A stretch of 19,625 bases of DNA from Paracoccus sp. (in: a-proteobacteria). Its GTDB lineage: Bacteria; Pseudomonadota; Alphaproteobacteria; Rhodobacterales; Rhodobacteraceae. Below are positions 3,361 through 10,517 of this stretch, one piece after another. The DNA is taken from assembly GCA_018056045.1 (NCBI GenBank), contig JAGPGI010000005.1, positions 1-19,625 on the forward strand, read 5' to 3'. Numbering within the stretch: position 1 is the first letter of the stretch; every line of letters begins with the position of its first letter. A program made the position numbers and the translations under genes. Below the pieces are notes generated by a model. It saw only the letters and a list, made by a program, of their open reading frames with translations, ran no database searches and was not told the DNA's origin.

Positions 3361-4308
3361 TCAGCCGGCATGGGCGCGGGCGTGGCGCTCCAGCGTGGCG
3401 GCGATGGCTTCAGGGATCGGCTGCCCGGTCCGGTCCACGCAGAACAGGTATTCGCCGGCGGGATTGATCTCGAAGAAGACATGCTCGCCCTCGGGGGTCA
3501 GGCGGAAATCGGCGGCGCCGAAACGCAGCTCCATCCGCCGCATCATCTCCAGAAGCTTCTGGCCGACCTCGTCGGGCAGGGCATAGGGCGCCACCTCGGC
3601 GCTGCCGATGCCGCCGCGATAATCGACCTCGTATTCGGGGGTCGAGCGAAAGCCGGTGGTGAAGATCTCTCCATCAATGACCGTGACCCGCAGGTCCAGC
3701 GCCAGCGGGATATATTCCTGAAAGATCACCGGGGCAAAGCGCACCGCGTCCAGTTGGCGCAGCTCGTCCGCGCCGACCCTGAGCGTGGCGCGCGGGGCCT
3801 GCGGGATATTGCGAAACGCCTTGCGGATCACGCCGGTCGCGGCATGGGCCTCGATAAAGGCGCGCGCCTCGTCGGGGCTGTTGGTGACCAGCGTTTCGGG
3901 GATGCGGAGCCCGATGCGCCGCGCCAGCCGGTGCTGATAGACCTTTTTCAGCGCGCGCTCATCGGCATGGGGCGGGTTCATCCAGAAACAGTCCATGCCA
4001 TGCCAGATCCCGTCCAGCGCCTCGGCGCATTCCGACCAGGCGAAGGTGCGCGCAGTCTCGTCGGTCAGTTGCGGATCCAGCGTATAGGGGCGGATACGGC
4101 GGTGCCAGACGGCGCCGACCTCGTCCAGCGCCAGCCGGCGCCCGTCGGGCAGGTCGAGGGAAAACGCGTCGACCGCGGCGCCGGCGCGCGCCTGCATCCG
4201 CATCTGCGAGGGAAACCACGCCAGATCGACGATTTCATAGGGCATGGACAGGTGCCGGGTCACCCGACGCACATGTTCGTTGTCGAGAAATGAGATGATC
4301 AGGATCAC
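3361..4308 (-). CDS. MvdC/MvdD-like (graspetide-type) ATP-grasp peptide ligase
   Basis: 315-residue ATP-grasp ligase resembling the microviridin/graspetide maturases, which activate Asp/Glu side-chain carboxylates with ATP and join them to Ser/Thr hydroxyls or Lys amines. Visible features are an N-terminal MILIISFLDNEHV strand, AVWHRR (66-71), WMNPP (109-113), K121-K122, K163, the adenine-contact segment IFQEYIPLALDLRVTV (195-210), ADFRL (266-270) with D267, and the Mg-binding FEINPAGEYLF (279-289) with E280 and N282. These are hallmarks of the MvdD-like branch rather than RimK or carboxylate-kinase branches (family judgement from memory). The GTG start has AAGG 10 nt upstream. No short precursor-peptide gene is evident; the gene directly upstream encodes the M43 protease with Lys-Asp repeats, the obvious candidate substrate. 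It is last in the four-gene unit, after a terminator-like hairpin. Confidence 0.82.
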   Translation of the reverse strand: MILIISFLDNEHVRRVTRHLSMPYEIVDLAWFPSQMRMQARAGAAVDAFSLDLPDGRRLALDEVGAVWHRRIRPYTLDPQLTDETARTFAWSECAEALDGIWHGMDCFWMNPPHADERALKKVYQHRLARRIGLRIPETLVTNSPDEARAFIEAHAATGVIRKAFRNIPQAPRATLRVGADELRQLDAVRFAPVIFQEYIPLALDLRVTVIDGEIFTTGFRSTPEYEVDYRGGIGSAEVAPYALPDEVGQKLLEMMRRMELRFGAADFRLTPEGEHVFFEINPAGEYLFCVDRTGQPIPEAIAATLERHARAHAG

Positions 4309-4336
4309 GACCGATACGCCTTGCCAGAGAAAGGGG

Positions 4337-4360
4337 GGGACCCGGCGCGAACCGGATCCC
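4337..4360 (-). terminator. terminator-like hairpin between the M43 gene and the ATP-grasp gene
   Basis: Read on the minus strand, arms 4360-4352 and 4345-4337 form a 9-bp stem with one U-G wobble and a 6-nt loop. It is followed by a C-run and a short UUUCU stretch. The weak U-tract suggests partial termination or an RNA-stability element that lowers ligase output relative to the protease. Predicted by eye. Confidence 0.45.
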
Positions 4361-4373
4361 TCGTGGCTGCGGG

Positions 4374-6038
4374 TTATTGTCCTCCGATCTGGCGATAGGC
4401 GTCATAGGCCTGTTGCCATGCGCTGAGCCCCTGTTCGTCCAGCAGTCCGCGCTGCCAGAGCCCGGCATAGTTTTGCAGGATCATCGCGTAATGGGCGTGC
4501 AGGTCTGCCATCGGATCGGCGGGCTGCTGATCGGCCGCGGCCGGCGCCTCGCCCGTCGCCAGCACGAAGGGCGTGGCGCCGGCATGCTGCGCATGGCCGC
4601 CAAACGGCACCTGCACGGGGCCGGGCAGGCCCGGGAAACCTCCGGGCGGGGTGAAGGGCGGCTCCAGCGCGCTTTTCGGGTCGGCGGGCGGCTCGAAGAT
4701 GGTCTTGGGGCCGGGGTCGAACGGGCGATCCTTGGGGCCGTCCTTGGGGATATCCTTGACGAAATCCTTGGGCCGGTCCTTGGGGATGTCCTTGGGTGCG
4801 TCCTTGAAAACCTCCTTGGGGGTGTCCTTGACCAGATCCTTGGGCCGGTCCTTGGGCGGATCCTTGGGAATATCCTTTGGAATGTCCTTTGGCGGATCCT
4901 TGGGGACGTCCTTCAGCCCGTCCTTGGGGATGTCCTTGATGATGTCCTTGGGGCGATCCTTCGGGAACTCCTTGACGATGTCCTTGGGTCCGTCCTTGGG
5001 GATATCCTTTGGTCCATCCTTGGGCGCTTCCTTGATGACGTCCTTGGGCCGGTCCTTGGGGAACTCCTTGATGACGTCTTTGGGGCCGTCTTTGGGGATG
5101 CTCTTGGGCAGCCCGCTGCACGAGATCGACTCGCCGATGGCGCTGCGCGGCCCGTCCAGGCAGGCATGCATCCGCGTCACCTGTCCCTCGGTGAACATGA
5201 CCATGGTGTCGTCATCGACATAATCCATGTAATTCATGAACATGTCGCCATTGGGGCCATTGTTGCACGAGATCGTCGGAAAGCTGGGCTTGCCGCCGTT
5301 CGAACCGCCCTGATTGGGCGTGTCATCGACGAAATCCGAACCCGAACATCCGGCGCCGTCATCGCCCCAGATATGGCGCAGGTTCAGCCAGTGGCCGATC
5401 TCATGCGTGGCGGTGCGCCCCAGATTGAAGGGCGCCGCCGCCGTCCCGGTGGTGCCAAAGCCGGCATGGGTGATGACCACGCCGTCGGTATCAGCCGGCC
5501 CGCCCGGAAACTGCGCATAGCCCAGAAGCCCGCCGGAAAGCTGGCAGACCCAGATATTGAGATACTCGTCGCGCGGCCAGGCATCCGAGCCGCCGCTGGA
5601 CGCGCGCTTGACCGCATCGTCGCCGCCGAAATTGTCGCGCGTGGTCTGCACGCGGACGACGCCGCTATGGGCGTTGCCCGCGGGATCGCGGTCTGCCAGC
5701 CGGAACTCCAGCCGCGCATCCGCCGCCACGCCGGCAAAGACCCCGGGCACGCTCGAGACATCGGCATTGCGTTTGCGAAAGTCGCGGTTCAGGACCTCGA
5801 TCTGGCTGTCGATCTGCGCCTGCGAGATGTTCTGCGCCGAGGTTTTCCAGACCACATGCACGACGACGGGAATGCGCGTGCAGCCGGGGCGCAGGACCAT
5901 CAGCCCCTCGCGGGCACGGAAGGCCTGTTCCTCGATCCGCGCAAGGCGGCGGGCATAATTGGGATCGGTATCGAGCAGGCGGCGATGGACCTGCATCGTG
6001 CCGCATTCCCGGCGTGTCGGTAGGTTTTCGTCGGTCAT
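4374..6038 (-). CDS. M43-family (pappalysin/cytophagalysin-like) zinc metalloprotease with Lys-Asp tetrapeptide repeat tail
   Basis: 554-residue zinc endopeptidase. The catalytic domain (about 10-308) has the zinc site H212-E213-x2-H216-x5-H222 ([11 protein letters not shown]), the Met-turn MNYMDY (268-273), and cysteines C231, C258, C293 and C307 as in cytophagalysins. C12 in RRECGTM sits where a cysteine switch could act (inference). The tail has three parts. Residues 315-438 are 31 unbroken tetrapeptides of the form [P/V/I/L/F]-K-[D/E]-x. Residues 439-505 are a Pro/Gly-rich linker. Residues 516-551 are a short helical module shared with the M28 peptidase. There is no N-terminal signal peptide or membrane segment. 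The ATG is preceded by GGAGAA 5 nt upstream. Third gene of the unit, with 65 nt before the ATP-grasp gene. Export route and substrate are unknown. Confidence 0.9.
4386..4493 (-). other. C-terminal module of the M43 protease shared with the M28 peptidase
   Basis: Residues 516-551 of the M43 protein align without gaps to residues 489-524 of the M28 protein. There are 11 identities in 36 positions, including HY, YA, a mid-module G and L, WQ and a final Q, with conservative hydrophobic matches at several others. Both copies follow a long low-complexity linker and sit at the extreme C-terminus, so a sorting, docking or enzyme-recognition role is plausible. Confidence 0.7.
4725..5096 (-). repeat. 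31 x 12-nt coding tandem repeat (Lys-Asp/Glu tetrapeptides)
   Basis: Inside the M43 gene, 372 nt encode exactly 31 tetrapeptides in unbroken register. Lys occurs at every fourth position from 316 to 436, each followed by Asp (27 units) or Glu (4 units). Most units begin with Pro and vary at the fourth position (G, V, F, R, A, I, P, L, T). The DNA copies are similar (PKD mostly CCCAAGGAC or CCAAAGGAC forms) but not identical, so the register seems maintained by selection rather than by very recent duplication. Confidence 0.9.
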
Positions 6039-6069
6039 CTGACTTCTCCAATAATATGAGCACCTCTGC

Positions 6070-6087
6070 CCGCCGTGATTGCGGCGG
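6070..6087 (-). other. intergenic stem-loop
   Basis: CCGCCG (6070-6075) and CGGCGG (6082-6087) form a perfect 6-bp stem with a 6-nt loop in the 79-nt gap between the lipocalin-like gene and the M43 gene. No U-tract follows, so it is more likely an RNA processing or stability element than a terminator, if it matters at all. Confidence 0.35.
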
Positions 6088-6117
6088 TCCCCGGCTACTG
6101 ATCAAACCACGCGAGGG

Positions 6118-6426
6118 TCAGAGCTTTTCCAGAACGAGACGGTCGTCCGTCAGCTCGCGGATGTCGTAATTTCCGTCCCATCCGGGCAGGATGACATGCA
6201 GTCTTTCACCCTCGCTGCTCCAGGAGCCGGCGCTTTCGGGAACCGGGGCGTCGGTCGGACCCTGACCCTTGCCCATGGCCGCGCCCGAGGCGGCCAGTTC
6301 AAGCCGCCGCCGCGGCTGGCGCGAGGGCGGCAGGACATCGCCAGCCGGGCGCAGGACCAGCCGGTTGCCCGAGCTTTCCTCGCGCATTTCGACCCAGTCG
6401 CGGCACAGTGCTTTCCTGTCGGCCAT
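6118..6426 (-). CDS. small lipocalin-like beta-barrel protein (hypothetical)
   Basis: 102 residues with no signal peptide. The pattern resembles small lipocalin-like domains: an early aromatic (W11), a strand GNRLVLRPAGD (20-30), a PPSR turn (33-36), LELAASG (42-48), a disordered middle, then GSWSSEGERLHVIL (67-80) and a closing DDRLVLEKL (94-102). No catalytic motif is visible. The start is supported by AAGGA 9 nt upstream. It lies between the M28 and M43 peptidase genes (94 and 79 nt gaps), so an inhibitor or chaperone for one of these proteases is conceivable; that role is inference from context, and the fold call is a judgement from the strand pattern. Confidence 0.72.
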   Translation of the reverse strand: MADRKALCRDWVEMREESSGNRLVLRPAGDVLPPSRQPRRRLELAASGAAMGKGQGPTDAPVPESAGSWSSEGERLHVILPGWDGNYDIRELTDDRLVLEKL

Positions 6427-6520
6427 GTTCCCGTTTCCTTGCGGCACGCGCCGCCGTTTGCTCTCTGGATATTTCCGGTGTCCGGGAACGGGCATCGGCT
6501 GCGTATGACAGGCCGCGGCG

Positions 6521-8110
6521 CTATCGCGGCTTGCGGTCGAGTTGGCCAAAGGCAAGCAGGGCAGATTGCCATCCGGCCCGATCGGCCGGACCCAGCCGGC
6601 CGTCGCGGTTGATCCGGGCATATTGCGCGAAAAGCGCCTGATAATGCCCGTTCACCTGGTTGACATGAGACGTCGCGGCCTGTTCGGCAGGCCCGCGACC
6701 GCTTGCGGGGCCGCAACCGCAACCGCAGGCGCCGGGCTGTGCGGGCGGCACCGGCAGGGGGTTGGGCTGAGTGCCGGGCTGAGTGCCAGGCTGGGGGGCG
6801 GGCGTTCCGGGCTGGCTTGCCGCCATGATGCCGGCCTCGGCTGCCAGCCAGCCGGCATTCATGCGCAGGATCTGGGTGGCGTAATCCATGTCCAGCCGGT
6901 CCAGCGTGTCCTGCCCGGAATGGACCGCGTCATTGGCGGAATCGGCGCCTTCGATGGTCAGGACGGCGGGGATGCCGGCCTCGATGAAGGGGACATGATC
7001 GCTGGCAAAGGGGTTGAGCGAGGTCTGGATCACCAGCGTGGTATGATCCTGCGCCGATTGCGCCAAGGCAGCGATCATACCCTGGCTCAGCGCTGCGCCT
7101 TCCAGCATCACGGTCGGCGGTGGACTGTTGACGCGGCCGATCATGTCCATGTTCAGCATCGCCCGGATGCGCCCGCGCTCGGCCTGCGAGAGCGCCGCGA
7201 CATATTGCGTCGATCCCAAAAGCCCCTGTTCTTCGCCCCCGAACAGAAGAAAGACCAGATCATGGGCAAAGTCCCGCGTGGCCATGGCGGCGGCCAGCGT
7301 CAGCACCCCGGCCGAGCCGCTGGCATTGTCGTCGGCGCCGGGGGCGGGGGCCGAAGGGCCGGCACCGTGATTGACGGAATCAAGATGCGCGCCCACAAGC
7401 ACCACCCCGCGCCCCGGTTCGGAAGCTTGTCCCGCCTTGGTGACGATCAGGTTCAGGCTGGTGGCGCCGCCGACGGTGACGCTGGCGGTGGTGCAGTTCA
7501 GGCCAAGCGCCTCGAACTGGCCCTGCGCCCATGCGACGGCGTCGCGGAAATCGGCGCTGGTCGAATGCCGGGTCCGGTATGAGGCGAGATGCGTCACCGC
7601 CGCCTCGAAGCCCGCGCGGGATACCGCCGCGACCGCCGCCGCGATCTCGGGGGCGGGCAGGCGGGCGGCTTCGCGCCGGGGAAGCTGGCGATAGATCGCC
7701 ACGTTTTCCGGCAATGGCCGGATGACGAAGGCCGGGGCGTGGCTGTCGCCCAGCTTCCGCGCGGCCTCGCGGTCGAATTCGACGATCAGGTAGCGGCCCT
7801 TGCCGGCCAGCACCCGGGCATCGGGATGGGCATGCTCAAAGCTGCGCCCGGTCTGCACGACCAGATGCAGGTCGGGCTTGCGCACCTCGTCGGCGGCGCC
7901 GGCGATCTCCAGCCGCCCGGCCAGCGCCTCCCATTTGCCATTCGCCGCGCAGATGAAAACCTCGTCGCCGAGCCCGACCCAGAAGCCGCCCTGCGCCTGG
8001 ATGGCGTCCAGTCCCGCCGCGCTTTCGGGTCGGGCGCCGCTGTCCGGCGCCGCCTCCTGCGCCGGGATGGGGAAATCGCTTATCCTTAAAGGTAATACCG
8101 CAAATTTCAT
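6521..8110 (-). CDS. M28-family zinc aminopeptidase with C-terminal Pro-rich linker and shared module
   Basis: 529-residue co-catalytic dizinc aminopeptidase. The N-terminal 1-150 resemble a propeptide or accessory domain. The M28 core (about 165-428) has H242 and D244 (GAHLDS), D260 (GADDNASG), E293-E294 (GGEEQG), D322 (NMDMIG) and H372 (SDHVPF), so the full metal and catalytic set is present. A Pro/Thr/Gln-rich linker (about 432-460) leads to a CGCGC stretch (C462, C464, C466) and a C-terminal module (489-524) homologous to the M43 protease tail. No signal peptide is visible. The ATG at 8110 has GGGGGA 7 nt upstream; the ATG at 8125 has no ribosome site and would lie only a few bases after the predicted transcription start. 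First gene of the four-gene unit, divergent from the trypsin-nuclease gene. Confidence 0.9.
   Translation of the reverse strand: MKFAVLPLRISDFPIPAQEAAPDSGARPESAAGLDAIQAQGGFWVGLGDEVFICAANGKWEALAGRLEIAGAADEVRKPDLHLVVQTGRSFEHAHPDARVLAGKGRYLIVEFDREAARKLGDSHAPAFVIRPLPENVAIYRQLPRREAARLPAPEIAAAVAAVSRAGFEAAVTHLASYRTRHSTSADFRDAVAWAQGQFEALGLNCTTASVTVGGATSLNLIVTKAGQASEPGRGVVLVGAHLDSVNHGAGPSAPAPGADDNASGSAGVLTLAAAMATRDFAHDLVFLLFGGEEQGLLGSTQYVAALSQAERGRIRAMLNMDMIGRVNSPPPTVMLEGAALSQGMIAALAQSAQDHTTLVIQTSLNPFASDHVPFIEAGIPAVLTIEGADSANDAVHSGQDTLDRLDMDYATQILRMNAGWLAAEAGIMAASQPGTPAPQPGTQPGTQPNPLPVPPAQPGACGCGCGPASGRGPAEQAATSHVNQVNGHYQALFAQYARINRDGRLGPADRAGWQSALLAFGQLDRKPR
6539..6646 (-). other. C-terminal module of the M28 peptidase shared with the M43 protease
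   Basis: Residues 489-524 of the M28 protein, paired without gaps with residues 516-551 of the M43 protein. The module is predicted helical, begins with HY, has a central YA then G-x-L, and ends with WQ-x-A-x2-A and Q-[IL]. It is absent from the trypsin-nuclease protein, the lipocalin-like protein and the ligase. Confidence 0.7.
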
Positions 8111-8137
8111 CGGGTTGTCCCCCATGAGCCGGGCAAC

Positions 8138-8166
8138 AGCATAGCTCAGAACCGGCCGATTCTCAA
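8138..8166 (-). promoter_or_regulatory. sigma-70-type promoter of the M28/lipocalin-like/M43/ATP-grasp unit
   Basis: Read on the minus strand, TTGAGA (8166-8161, 5 of 6 to the -35 consensus) and TATGCT (8143-8138, 4 of 6) are separated by 17 nt. Transcription would start near 8131, about 20 nt before the ATG at 8110, which supports that start over 8125. Predicted by eye. Confidence 0.5.
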
Positions 8167-8258
8167 ATGCTGACCGCTGGCTGGCCCCGATCTCCGCAGC
8201 AATCCGTCACAATCCATGGTAGATTGAGCCAGGCGCAAGATGACAGGCAGAGGCAAGC

Positions 8259-10517
8259 ATGGACGACGACAACATCCATTCCGATACCCTGCGTCTGGCA
8301 GAGGAGGCACTGGCCCGCTGGCAGGCGCGATCCAAGGTCCGCAACGGCCGCAGCAAGGCGCTGCGCGCGGGCAAGGCCTTGCTGGCCGACACCCCGTCAC
8401 GGCTGGCGGCGCGGGTCAATGTTCTGGTGGGCGAGGTCCGGCGCTACTGCGAATGGGGGCAGATGCCCTCGAACGATGTGCTGCGCGAGCTGGTCGAGCG
8501 GCCGGCGCCGGTGGTGGCCGAAGAGCTGACCGACCGGATCGTCAACGAGGCGCTGATCGGGACCTCGGATTTCCTGTCGGTCGAGTTTCTGGAACGCGGC
8601 GCGCTGGCGGCGCGCAGCGTCGGGCGGATCCTGATCGAGGTAGATGGCGGACGGGCGGCGCTTGGCACCGGCTTCATGGTCGGGCCGGGGCTGTTGATGA
8701 CCAATCAGCATGTGCTGACCTCGGACCGGCGCGCGGCGCGCTGCGTGCTGCAGATGGATTATGAATTGCGCCTGTTCGGCGCCCCGCGCGCGCCGCAGGA
8801 ATTCGCGCTGGAGCCGCAGCGGTTCTTTCTGGCGCATGAGGATCTGGATTTCGCGCTGGTCGCCGTGGCCGGGACCAGCGCCATGGGCCTGCAGCTGGAG
8901 GGCTATGGCTGGCTGCCGCTGGTCGAGGCGCAGGGCAAGATCGCGATCTCGGACAAGGACCATATCAACATCATCCAGCATCCCCGCGGCGAGGAAAAAC
9001 AGGTCGTGCTGCGCAACAACCGGGTGCTGGACATGCGCACCGGCGACGACCCCAAGGACGAGATGATCGGCTCGTTCCTGCATTACGAGGCCGATACCGA
9101 CAAGGGCTCGTCCGGCGCGCCGGTGCTCAGCGATACCTGGCAGGTGATCGGGCTGCATCATTCGGGGGTGCCGGCGCTGCATGAAAAGGGCGGCTGGCTG
9201 CACAGGAATGGCGACCAGTGGCAGGACGGCCGCGACCGGCTCGAGGATGTGGTCTGGGTCGCCAACGAGGCGGTGCGCATCTCGGGCATCATGGGCGCGA
9301 TCAAGCTGGCGCAGCTTGATCCGCTCCGGCGCGGCTTTGTCGATGCGGCGCTGGCCGCAAGGCCGCGGGTCGCATGGGCGATGCCGGGCACGACCGAGGC
9401 GATCACCACCATCCTGAACACGCCGCCGGCCGCTCCGGTGCCGCCCCAGCCTGCCCCGCAACCCGTGCTTGCGCCAGCGGTGCTGGCCGGGGGCAGCGTC
9501 GATATCCCGCTGCGGGTGACGATCTCGCTGGGCGGGGCGGTTCCGGGGGCGGCTCCGGAAATCGCCCTGAGCGACGGGCGCGGCGGATCCGACACGGCCC
9601 TGCTCGAGGCGATCTCGCCAAGCGACATGGCCGACCGCAAGGGTTACGACCCGCATTTCCTTGGCTTTGATCTGCCGCTGCCGGGGATCAAGTCCAAGCC
9701 CGCCTTTGGCGGCGCGCAGCGGATCACCCAGCCCTCGCATCCCGAAGACGAATACGAGCTGCGTTATCACGGCTATAGCGTGCTGATCTGCGCCGGGCGC
9801 CGGCAGGCCTATCTTTCGGCCTGTCAGGTCGATTTCAACGCGCCGGTGACGGTGGGACGCGAGGGCGGCGGCAACTGGCGCTATGATCCGCGCATTCCCC
9901 GCGCCGCGCAGCTTGGCAGCCGCTATTACGACAACAATCCCTATGATCGCGGCCACCTGTCACGCCGTGACGACCTTGCCCGTGGCCCCACGCGCGAGGC
10001 CGCGATCGCCGCCAACAGGGACAGCTTTTTCTGGACCAATTGTGCGCCCCAGCATTACCTCTTGAACCAGTCCGGGGCCACCGGCGCCAATCTGCGGCTC
10101 TGGGGCGATCTTGAGAATTACATCTCCGAGCAGGGGCCGGCGCATGGCAGGCTGTCGGTGTTCAACGGGCCGGTCTTCGGCGCGGCCGACAAGCCGCTTT
10201 ATGACGCGCTGGTGCCGATGGCCTTTTACAAGATCGTCGTCTGGGGCGGCCCGGATTGCGGCGATGCCGGCGCGCTTGGCTTTGTCCTTGAGCAGGCCGA
10301 TCTGGTCAGGGACCTGCCCGAGCAACGGCTCGCCCCCGGCATCTTCTCGATCCGCCAGCGCCCGATCAGCGCCATCGGCGAGGGGCTGGATGTCGATCTG
10401 CGCGATCTGGCGGCGCTGGACCGCATGCAGCCGGCCGGGCGGCGCGGCAAGACGGCCAAGGGCGCGCAGGACAGCGACGGCATCGAGATCACCTCGGTCG
10501 AGGATATCCGCTTCTGA
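8259..10517 (+). CDS. trypsin-like serine protease fused to DNA/RNA non-specific (NUC1-type) endonuclease
   Basis: 752 residues, two enzymes in one chain. Residues 1-115 are helical and charged, without a signal peptide. Residues 118-345 are a trypsin-like domain with H151 (TNQHVLT), D195 or D197 (EDLDFAL) and S285 (GSSGAPV). Residues 388-410 are a Pro/Ala linker, and 465-700 a beta-beta-alpha-metal nuclease of the NUC1 type with DRGH (563-566, general base H566), N594 (TNCAPQ) and the downstream W615 and L618-E619. Both active sites look complete. AGAGG lies 5 nt before the ATG. The gene is divergent from the M28/M43/ATP-grasp unit across a 148-nt spacer. The architecture suggests a nuclease kept inactive or released by its own protease, as in biological-conflict effectors, but a nutritional secreted nuclease is also possible. 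A recognised secretion signal is lacking. Confidence 0.9.
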   Translation: MDDDNIHSDTLRLAEEALARWQARSKVRNGRSKALRAGKALLADTPSRLAARVNVLVGEVRRYCEWGQMPSNDVLRELVERPAPVVAEELTDRIVNEALIGTSDFLSVEFLERGALAARSVGRILIEVDGGRAALGTGFMVGPGLLMTNQHVLTSDRRAARCVLQMDYELRLFGAPRAPQEFALEPQRFFLAHEDLDFALVAVAGTSAMGLQLEGYGWLPLVEAQGKIAISDKDHINIIQHPRGEEKQVVLRNNRVLDMRTGDDPKDEMIGSFLHYEADTDKGSSGAPVLSDTWQVIGLHHSGVPALHEKGGWLHRNGDQWQDGRDRLEDVVWVANEAVRISGIMGAIKLAQLDPLRRGFVDAALAARPRVAWAMPGTTEAITTILNTPPAAPVPPQPAPQPVLAPAVLAGGSVDIPLRVTISLGGAVPGAAPEIALSDGRGGSDTALLEAISPSDMADRKGYDPHFLGFDLPLPGIKSKPAFGGAQRITQPSHPEDEYELRYHGYSVLICAGRRQAYLSACQVDFNAPVTVGREGGGNWRYDPRIPRAAQLGSRYYDNNPYDRGHLSRRDDLARGPTREAAIAANRDSFFWTNCAPQHYLLNQSGATGANLRLWGDLENYISEQGPAHGRLSVFNGPVFGAADKPLYDALVPMAFYKIVVWGGPDCGDAGALGFVLEQADLVRDLPEQRLAPGIFSIRQRPISAIGEGLDVDLRDLAALDRMQPAGRRGKTAKGAQDSDGIEITSVEDIRF

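Follow-up and report, generated by a model that had tools for sequence, protein, structure and literature searches.

ATP-grasp ligases of the graspetide kind have been described beside peptidases in two surveys. Makarova et al. 2022 linked branches 7 and 8 of these ligases to peptidases of unrelated families and found the precursors unpredictable; branch 7 often occurs with a YscW-like protein, and precursors were suggested to lie elsewhere in the genome (PMC8939145). Carter et al. 2026 placed group 32 ligases near diverse proteases and read the association as maturation or resistance. We analysed 19,625 nucleotides from Paracoccus sp. (positions 1 to 19,625 of contig JAGPGI010000005.1, assembly GCA_018056045.1; this whole stretch, 'the window', belongs to a 3.04-Mb genome, 72% complete, of which it is contig 199), in which such a ligase is encoded directly downstream of an M43 metalloprotease. 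Loci of this type share with branches 7 and 8 and with group 32 the position of the ligase beside diverse peptidases, and we infer that they belong to these groups; the difference is that the peptidase, read there as a processing or resistance enzyme, is read here as the substrate. We give a probability of about 70% to the proposal, taken as a whole, that the ligase cross-links repeats within the M43 protease itself, guided by a motif that follows them, that the resulting tail acts as an inhibitor or tether, that a small lipocalin-like protein is an inhibitor as well, and that a neighbouring M28 peptidase docks.

The candidate substrate can be compared with known graspetides. With microviridins and multi-core graspetides it shares the ligase family, repeated cores of nucleophile and acid, a TLKF...(E/D)D unit and a PF-type recognition motif, but here a protease of ~400-600 aa provides the candidate precursor as its C-terminus, the motif comes after the core, and there is one ligase. 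The motif, PF[VI]L, resembles the Phhx(1,2)h leader motif described by Makarova et al. 2022 (PMC8939145), but again it sits after the core. The graspetide ligase ThfB works with an engineered C-terminal leader, at a rate two-fold slower (PMC13003496). In corallotide, a group 15 graspetide (Carter et al. 2026), KxxxD spacing forms a Lys-Asp isopeptide, and the linked lysine resisted trypsin (PMC13097080). Corallotide is thus alike in being a large repeated substrate with such isopeptides; it differs in being a separate, oxygenase-modified precursor of ~22 kDa, for which the available text describes no protease domain. Among the open-access papers listed in literature searches (subscription papers lay outside their coverage), judged by title, opening of the abstract or selected passages, we saw none with a graspetide core fused to a protease.

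The original prediction for this locus, which was made from the sequence without database searches, listed five open reading frames with their strands and with gaps of 94, 79 and 65 nt, and all of these are borne out by the list of open reading frames in the window (Table 1). The Pfam matches to the peptidases and the nuclease are strong (Peptidase_M43 2.7e-16, Peptidase_M28 7.8e-39, Trypsin_2 1.4e-19, Endonuclease_NS 1e-22).

Table 1. Features of the locus, with positions in the window
Feature	Positions	Strand	Basis
MvdC/MvdD-like ATP-grasp ligase, predicted to form side-chain amides or esters	3361..4308	-	Pfam, NCBIfam, PDB relatives, motif FEINPAG
M43 pappalysin of the ulilysin type with C-terminal module; likely ligase substrate	4374..6038	-	Pfam, PDB relatives
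M43 C-terminal tail (aa 508-554), two modelled helices, alike in M28	4377..4517	-	
PFVLATG, leader-like motif, C-terminal to the repeats	4551..4571	-	Motif count in relatives
M43 repeat region (aa 306-489), PKDx units; proposed multi-core substrate	4572..5123	-	
Small lipocalin-like protein, probable dedicated M43 inhibitor or partner	6118..6426	-	Start MADRK, 102 aa
M28 exopeptidase, signal peptide not evident	6521..8125	-	Pfam
M28 C-terminal tail (aa 489-534), alike to M43 tail	6524..6661	-	
Divergent trypsin-NUC1 fusion, optional associate	8259..10517	+	Pfam

The M43 protein consists, in order, of a catalytic domain, 184 aa of PKDx-type repeats and linker, the PFVLATG motif and a tail modelled as two helices. 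The 184-aa region contains 34 K, 5 R, 29 D and 6 E. Solved M43 relatives align with the pro-segment and the catalytic part only. The K/D repeats and PFVLATG were missing from the original prediction, as was the likeness of the M43 tail to the M28 C-terminus (local score 77, against a mean of 30, a standard deviation of 5.7 and a maximum of 52 in 200 shuffles). Among the best 120 of 7993 M43 relatives, 82 have PKD/PKE repeats, 16 have TLKFRDD-like (KFxDD) repeats, 8 have KKxEPD repeats, 6 have a short C-terminus and 8 have other ends. The PF motif is present in 79/82, 16/16, 0/8, 0/6 and 6/8 of these classes, respectively. In loci L010 and L009 it is missing only through a contig end and a run of N, respectively. 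(The KKxEPD proteins are P0196, P0204, P0206, P0221, P0222, P0225, P0231 and P0239, which have a different C-terminus where they are complete; when plasmids were searched with P0204, none of the records spanned 80% of the query.)

The repeat types PKDx, TLKFRDD and TPxxxD (the last on an S8 protease, see below) differ, but each retains a nucleophile together with an acid, often at a distance of five residues. An acid stands at +5 from K in 0.88 of cases in the PKD class, from T in 0.71 in the KFxDD class and from T in 0.69 in the S8 proteins (base 0.13-0.18), and K in the TLKFRDD units has an acid at +4 in 0.67. Because other spacings score as high (KFxDD T at +6, 0.69; S8 T at -4, 0.70), the acid spacing does not fix the connectivity. 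K/(D+E) in the PKD class has a median of 0.96 (interquartile range 0.95-1.00, repeat regions of 66-225 aa), which is a ratio that the PKDx unit yields by itself. A Nostoc microviridin precursor encoded beside MvdC and MvdD, which served as a control, has PFFARFL followed by TKKYPSDKED and TLKFPSDRED cores, and the M43 TLKFRDD unit resembles the latter core minus PSD. Judged by their sequences, the M43 C-termini are therefore candidate ribosomal substrates with repeated nucleophiles (K/T/S) and acids (D/E). An N-terminal leader before the core was not found in the M43 and S8 proteins, where the PF motif sits after the repeats.

The ligase belongs to the MvdC/MvdD/GRASP_SAV_5884 group. Pfam detects an ATPgraspMvdD pre-domain (4.5e-10) and RimK (4e-05), with PF21068 above its cut-off, and NCBIfam gives GRASP_SAV_5884 (6e-62), MvdC (9.5e-53) and MvdD (5.1e-50), all under the curated cut-offs; the bit scores of 179.4 for MvdC and 170.5 for MvdD fall short of the equivalog cut-offs of 425 and 475. 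Its PDB relatives are 5ig9 (4.3e-39), 5ig8 (8e-39), 7m4s, 7mgv, 9bou and 7drm; the nearest are graspetide ligases, and RimK is distant (4.7e-4). The MvdD-like motif that had been proposed holds at the residue level, where FEINPAG is found. Beside the ligase in the window there is no stand-alone small precursor, and a regulator open reading frame on the opposite strand ends 14 nt from it. A small precursor gene between the M43 gene and the ligase is excluded in the window, since the 65-nt gap leaves no space for one; the corresponding gap is -4 to 135 nt in 12 loci.

The GTDB species collection yielded at least 580 M43 stretches that were confirmed, and we compared the best 80 loci among them, which hold 84 M43 rows. 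The loci were ranked by similarity to the M43 of the window, which favours repeat-bearing M43s. The ligase adjoins 11 of the 12 repeat-bearing rows (the exception, L010, ends inside the M43 gene at a contig end), and none of the 72 rows without recognised repeats, two of which (L016 and L081) have no downstream sequence. The M43s without such repeats have no extension, a lectin-like repeat or other extensions. A ligase profile search found no further ligase in the 80 M43 loci or in 33 viral M43 loci. In 25 kb of Azospirillum (L002), an M28, an M43 and a lipocalin-like gene occur together, both peptidases are without C-terminal extensions, and the profile search found no ligase. Outside the set of 80, the same order of M43 and ligase recurs in two loci of the window's genus (L091 and L092) and in Burkholderia (L003, a biased case because it was located via its ligase). 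As controls, six other plasmid ligase regions included one tgmA-tgmB locus and one microviridin locus with MvdC and MvdD, and the remaining four had no annotated M43 within 5 kb.

A like module is also found on an unrelated protease. The ligase was detected in seven of the 125 genomes searched from the window's genus. One of the seven, G300, encodes it 87 nt downstream of a gene for an S8 subtilisin-like protease (PF00082, 2.3e-27) in locus L136; this ligase has 44% identity and is truncated by the end of the contig. The C-terminus of this protease consists of TPxxxD repeats, PFVLSTPH and a tail. Genome G600, from another genus of the family, has a complete ligase gene that begins 64 nt downstream of an S8 gene with the same C-terminus (locus L142), and eight further S8 proteins carry the end with TPxxxD repeats, PFVLST and tail. 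A close relative of this S8 protein occurs only in G300 and G600 among the 125 genus genomes and 394 family genomes, and a plasmid search with the S8 module gave no match. If the module is the substrate, it is to be expected that a like module, accompanied by a ligase of this kind, also occurs on an unrelated fold.

The ligases also appear to follow the repeat type. In a tree of 15 module-linked and 7 other ligases, the module-linked ligases form one clade (support 100/99), which contains a PKD-type group (99/99) and a second group linked to KFxDD, T/D and S8 modules (94/96). (The L009 ligase, which has runs of N, and the long-branched Phyllobacterium and Pedobacter ligases were dropped from all ligase trees after the first, and the partial L136 ligase, L137, L138 and L139 from this tree.) Since Pseudomonadota and Acidobacteriota are present in both groups, ligase type tracks repeat type rather than phylum. 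In L013 the M43 lies among the PKD types, yet its repeats are KFxDD and its ligase falls in the KFxDD group, which hints that module and ligase move together.

The catalytic part of the M43 protein is that of a unicellular pappalysin. The active site proposed earlier held up residue by residue, with C12, the zinc motif (aa 212-222), M271, Y273 and D276 conserved, so that the zinc motif, the Met-turn, the S1' Asp and the CG switch of these enzymes are all present. Its PDB relatives are pro-ulilysin (4.9e-118) and mirolysin, with which it shares the catalytic domain, the Cys-switch and the S1' Asp. We know of no repeat/PF module or ligase for ulilysin or mirolysin. In mirolysin the CG Cys-switch confers latency and the S1' Asp directs cleavage before Lys/Arg, and both ulilysin and mirolysin trim themselves at the N- and C-terminus (PMC6949598). 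By analogy, the M43 of the window is predicted to prefer cleavage before Lys/Arg and to be latent through the Cys-switch. In the structure prediction, the repeats and catalytic residues 223-275 both have a predicted local distance difference test (pLDDT) score below 50, so we report no docking pose.

Other variations among the M43 proteins are given here for completeness. The proteins of Oxalobacteraceae and Kribbella (L018-L021, L023-L030, L035-L037, L044) have Gly/Met-rich stretches N-terminal to the Cys-switch, and those of several actinobacteria (L050, L066, L069, L071, L079, L084) have another conserved end, VERLLxDxERLTxEVLxxIxxALGLV. In L093 (genome G302 of the window's genus), a lectin-type M43 is split over two frames, the M28 has an internal stop and no ligase is seen on the 4.4-kb contig; either decay of the locus or poor assembly might account for this.

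A mechanism that would account for these observations is as follows. The ligase would form amides from Lys to Asp/Glu inside the C-terminal repeats of M43, and Thr esters in the sister types. PFVLATG, perhaps together with the helical tail, would play the role that PFFARFL plays in microviridin leaders; since it lies after the repeats, the protein would amount to an enzyme that carries its own graspetide precursor, in which a follower replaces the leader. (The tail alone is not a sufficient handle for the ligase, as a Myxococcota M43, L046, has a tail similar by eye, but repeats, PF motif and ligase are all missing there.) Being Lys-rich and next to a domain that cuts at Lys/Arg, the C-terminus would be a target for self-cleavage unless its lysines were blocked, and a cross-linked tail would resist this. 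From the risk of self-cleavage and from the known graspetide inhibitors comes our guess that the tail acts as a built-in, tethered inhibitor or as a rigid, cleavage-proof tether. The original prediction of a modified proteolytic complex came close; what it lacked is the protease's own role as the likely substrate. More tentatively, and with the balance in our view tipping against it, the cross-linked multi-core tail might both inhibit a Lys/Arg-specific protease in cis and switch its latency, since cleavage could occur only at lysines free of cross-links; given the like module on unrelated proteases (M43 and S8), ATP-grasp ligases might then mature whole protease families.

Several points weigh against this reading. 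The independent origins are few: on a tree of 90 M43 domains, 15 of them with ligase (L001, L010, L086-L090, L093 and viral loci were omitted), the ligase label requires 2 changes and the repeat type also 2, with 2 independent pairs, and a single clade of KFxDD M43s is not rejected (approximately unbiased test, p-AU 0.178). When the partial L136 ligase, L137, L138 and L139 are added to the ligase tree, relations between the groups become weak and the module-linked clade is not resolved; the L136 ligase then groups with those of L137 and L138, genus relatives that lie beside a serralysin and have no module found nearby. A tree that keeps two long-branch controls places the Phyllobacterium one among the M43-linked ligases. 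The patterns defining the repeat classes were fixed only after the sequences had been inspected, and 10 of the 72 ligase-free rows could not be classified by them. Acids in the PKD class reach similar frequencies at +1 (0.84), -3 (0.82) and +5, as in any repeat of period four, the eight KKxEPD-type M43s of the best 120 have no PF motif, and the repeats could be a plain polyampholyte stalk. In addition, the graspetide inhibitors named in the available texts target serine proteases, not metalloproteases; microviridins and plesiocin are such inhibitors, and the potency of plesiocin grows with motif number (PMC13097080).

An explanation already in print is that the peptidases are processing enzymes, with the ligase modifying released peptides or a small precursor encoded elsewhere. 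Processing was the view of Makarova et al. 2022 (PMC8939145), Carter et al. 2026 proposed maturation or resistance, and a protease that processes microviridin is known (PMC13039773). The ligases of L137 and L138, which adjoin a protease without the module, fit this explanation too. However, it leaves unexplained why, in the loci examined, the ligase accompanies only those M43s that have nucleophile-acid repeats, and why a like C-terminal module occurs on an unrelated S8 protease, and we consider it rather unlikely. Alternatively, the repeats might be a charged, Pro-rich stalk that spaces the tail, in which case the ligase might add amino acids as RimK does or modify the tail, for example to control docking. 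The repeats are modelled without confidence, as disordered regions would be, they are of low complexity with K close to D+E, and the ligase has a RimK-like domain. Yet the nearest solved relatives of the ligase are graspetide ligases rather than RimK (E-values above), the KFxDD units look like microviridin cores, and the ligase group tracks the repeat type, so that a stalk seems to us quite improbable.

The original prediction had also considered a toxin-like, secreted weapon or defence module of all five genes, in which the trypsin-NUC1 fusion could be the effector. The fusion does adjoin an M43 gene in the window, L092, L033, L050 and L084, but it is found in only 3 of the best 80 M43 loci. 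Relatives of the fusion are present on 115 plasmid records; in L094, the one inspected, no M43 is annotated close by. PADLOC gave no convincing model for the window proteins, its matches being weak: RT-protease models including RT-Protease_XI (1.2e-07 and 1.3e-06) on the trypsin part, and for M43 only Csx25, at 0.0093. We regard a five-gene toxin or defence module as very improbable. What is preferred is still cross-linking of the repeats of the protease by the ligase encoded next to it.

The five families had been proposed to form a conserved system that should co-occur across genomes. A conserved system does exist, but its core appears to be the lipocalin-like protein and M43, with or without M28, rather than the five-gene set. 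A lipocalin-like gene is near M43 in 63 of the best 80 loci (ten phyla, one archaeal), compared with 14 loci with a strong M28 match, 11 with the ligase and 3 with trypsin-NUC1. Within the window's genus (125 genomes), the four genomes that carry M28 are also the four that carry M43; three of them have a close ligase (at least 76% identity) and two have trypsin-NUC1. A more distant ligase, with no M43 in the genome, is found in four others. At the phylum and family levels, M43 was found in 1 of 200 and 1 of 394 genomes, the window's own both times, and is therefore too rare there for sampling gains and losses. It looks as if lipocalin-like protein and M43, sometimes with M28, are an old unit, with the ligase accompanying repeat-bearing M43s and the trypsin-nuclease a loose partner.

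The small protein has no Pfam match. Its AlphaFold model (100 of 102 residues, pLDDT 95) is a lipocalin-like barrel with a possible fold match to potempin E; Foldseek gave no match below E 0.06. For 46 such small proteins, Pfam YscW gave no match at E up to 1, and Lipocalin_4 matched 9 (best E 0.0051). Like the potempins, it is encoded beside a protease, but it differs from them in having no signal peptide: it starts MADRKALCRDW and has no hydrophobic stretch, and so lacks a lipoprotein signal. It is probably an inhibitor of M43, which would act as a free cytosolic protein. (In L040, a small protein at positions 5382-5759 has a lipoprotein-like signal; this is the sole lipocalin-like gene among 10 signal-bearing M43 rows.)

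The M28 exopeptidase would dock, through its like tail, to the same partner or site as M43. Its end, HYQALFAQYARL..., is conserved across 44 aligned M28 sequences including the window's, and the relatives P0002, P0005 and P0006 begin at MKF. M28 was rejected as a further ligase substrate: the linkers inspected are Gly/Pro/Cys-rich and have no K/T-D/E repeats. In Roseovarius and the window's genus, M43 and M28 both end in a helical-type tail, which is absent from the M28s of ligase-free loci except L010 (where the contig ends before any ligase could show). In Kribbella (L034-L037, L044, L054), M43 and M28 share one operon, and WGPxRLDVFxxGTD lectin-like repeats form the end of each. The absence of the tail from M28s without ligase and the matching Kribbella ends favour the M28 tail as a docking end, and the matched ends of M43 and M28, compared by sequence, are probably a common docking end.

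Two ligases of genus relatives, L137:6378-7259 and L138:6293-7171, lie beside an RTX serralysin and a regulator, and no PF motif was found near them. They may be inactive, because FLDIDPAG replaces the catalytic FLEINPAG.

If the proposal is correct, the precursor that was not found for the peptidase-linked branches 7 and 8 (Makarova et al. 2022) could be the C-terminus of M43, and two genes in E. coli would suffice for a direct test of the missing-precursor question. Graspetide chemistry would then no longer be confined to peptides but would include the cross-linking of regions within large enzymes. Peptide engineering would gain, in the PF motifs, recognition motifs that are naturally C-terminal, and the arrangement would point to genetically encoded fusions of protease and inhibitor.

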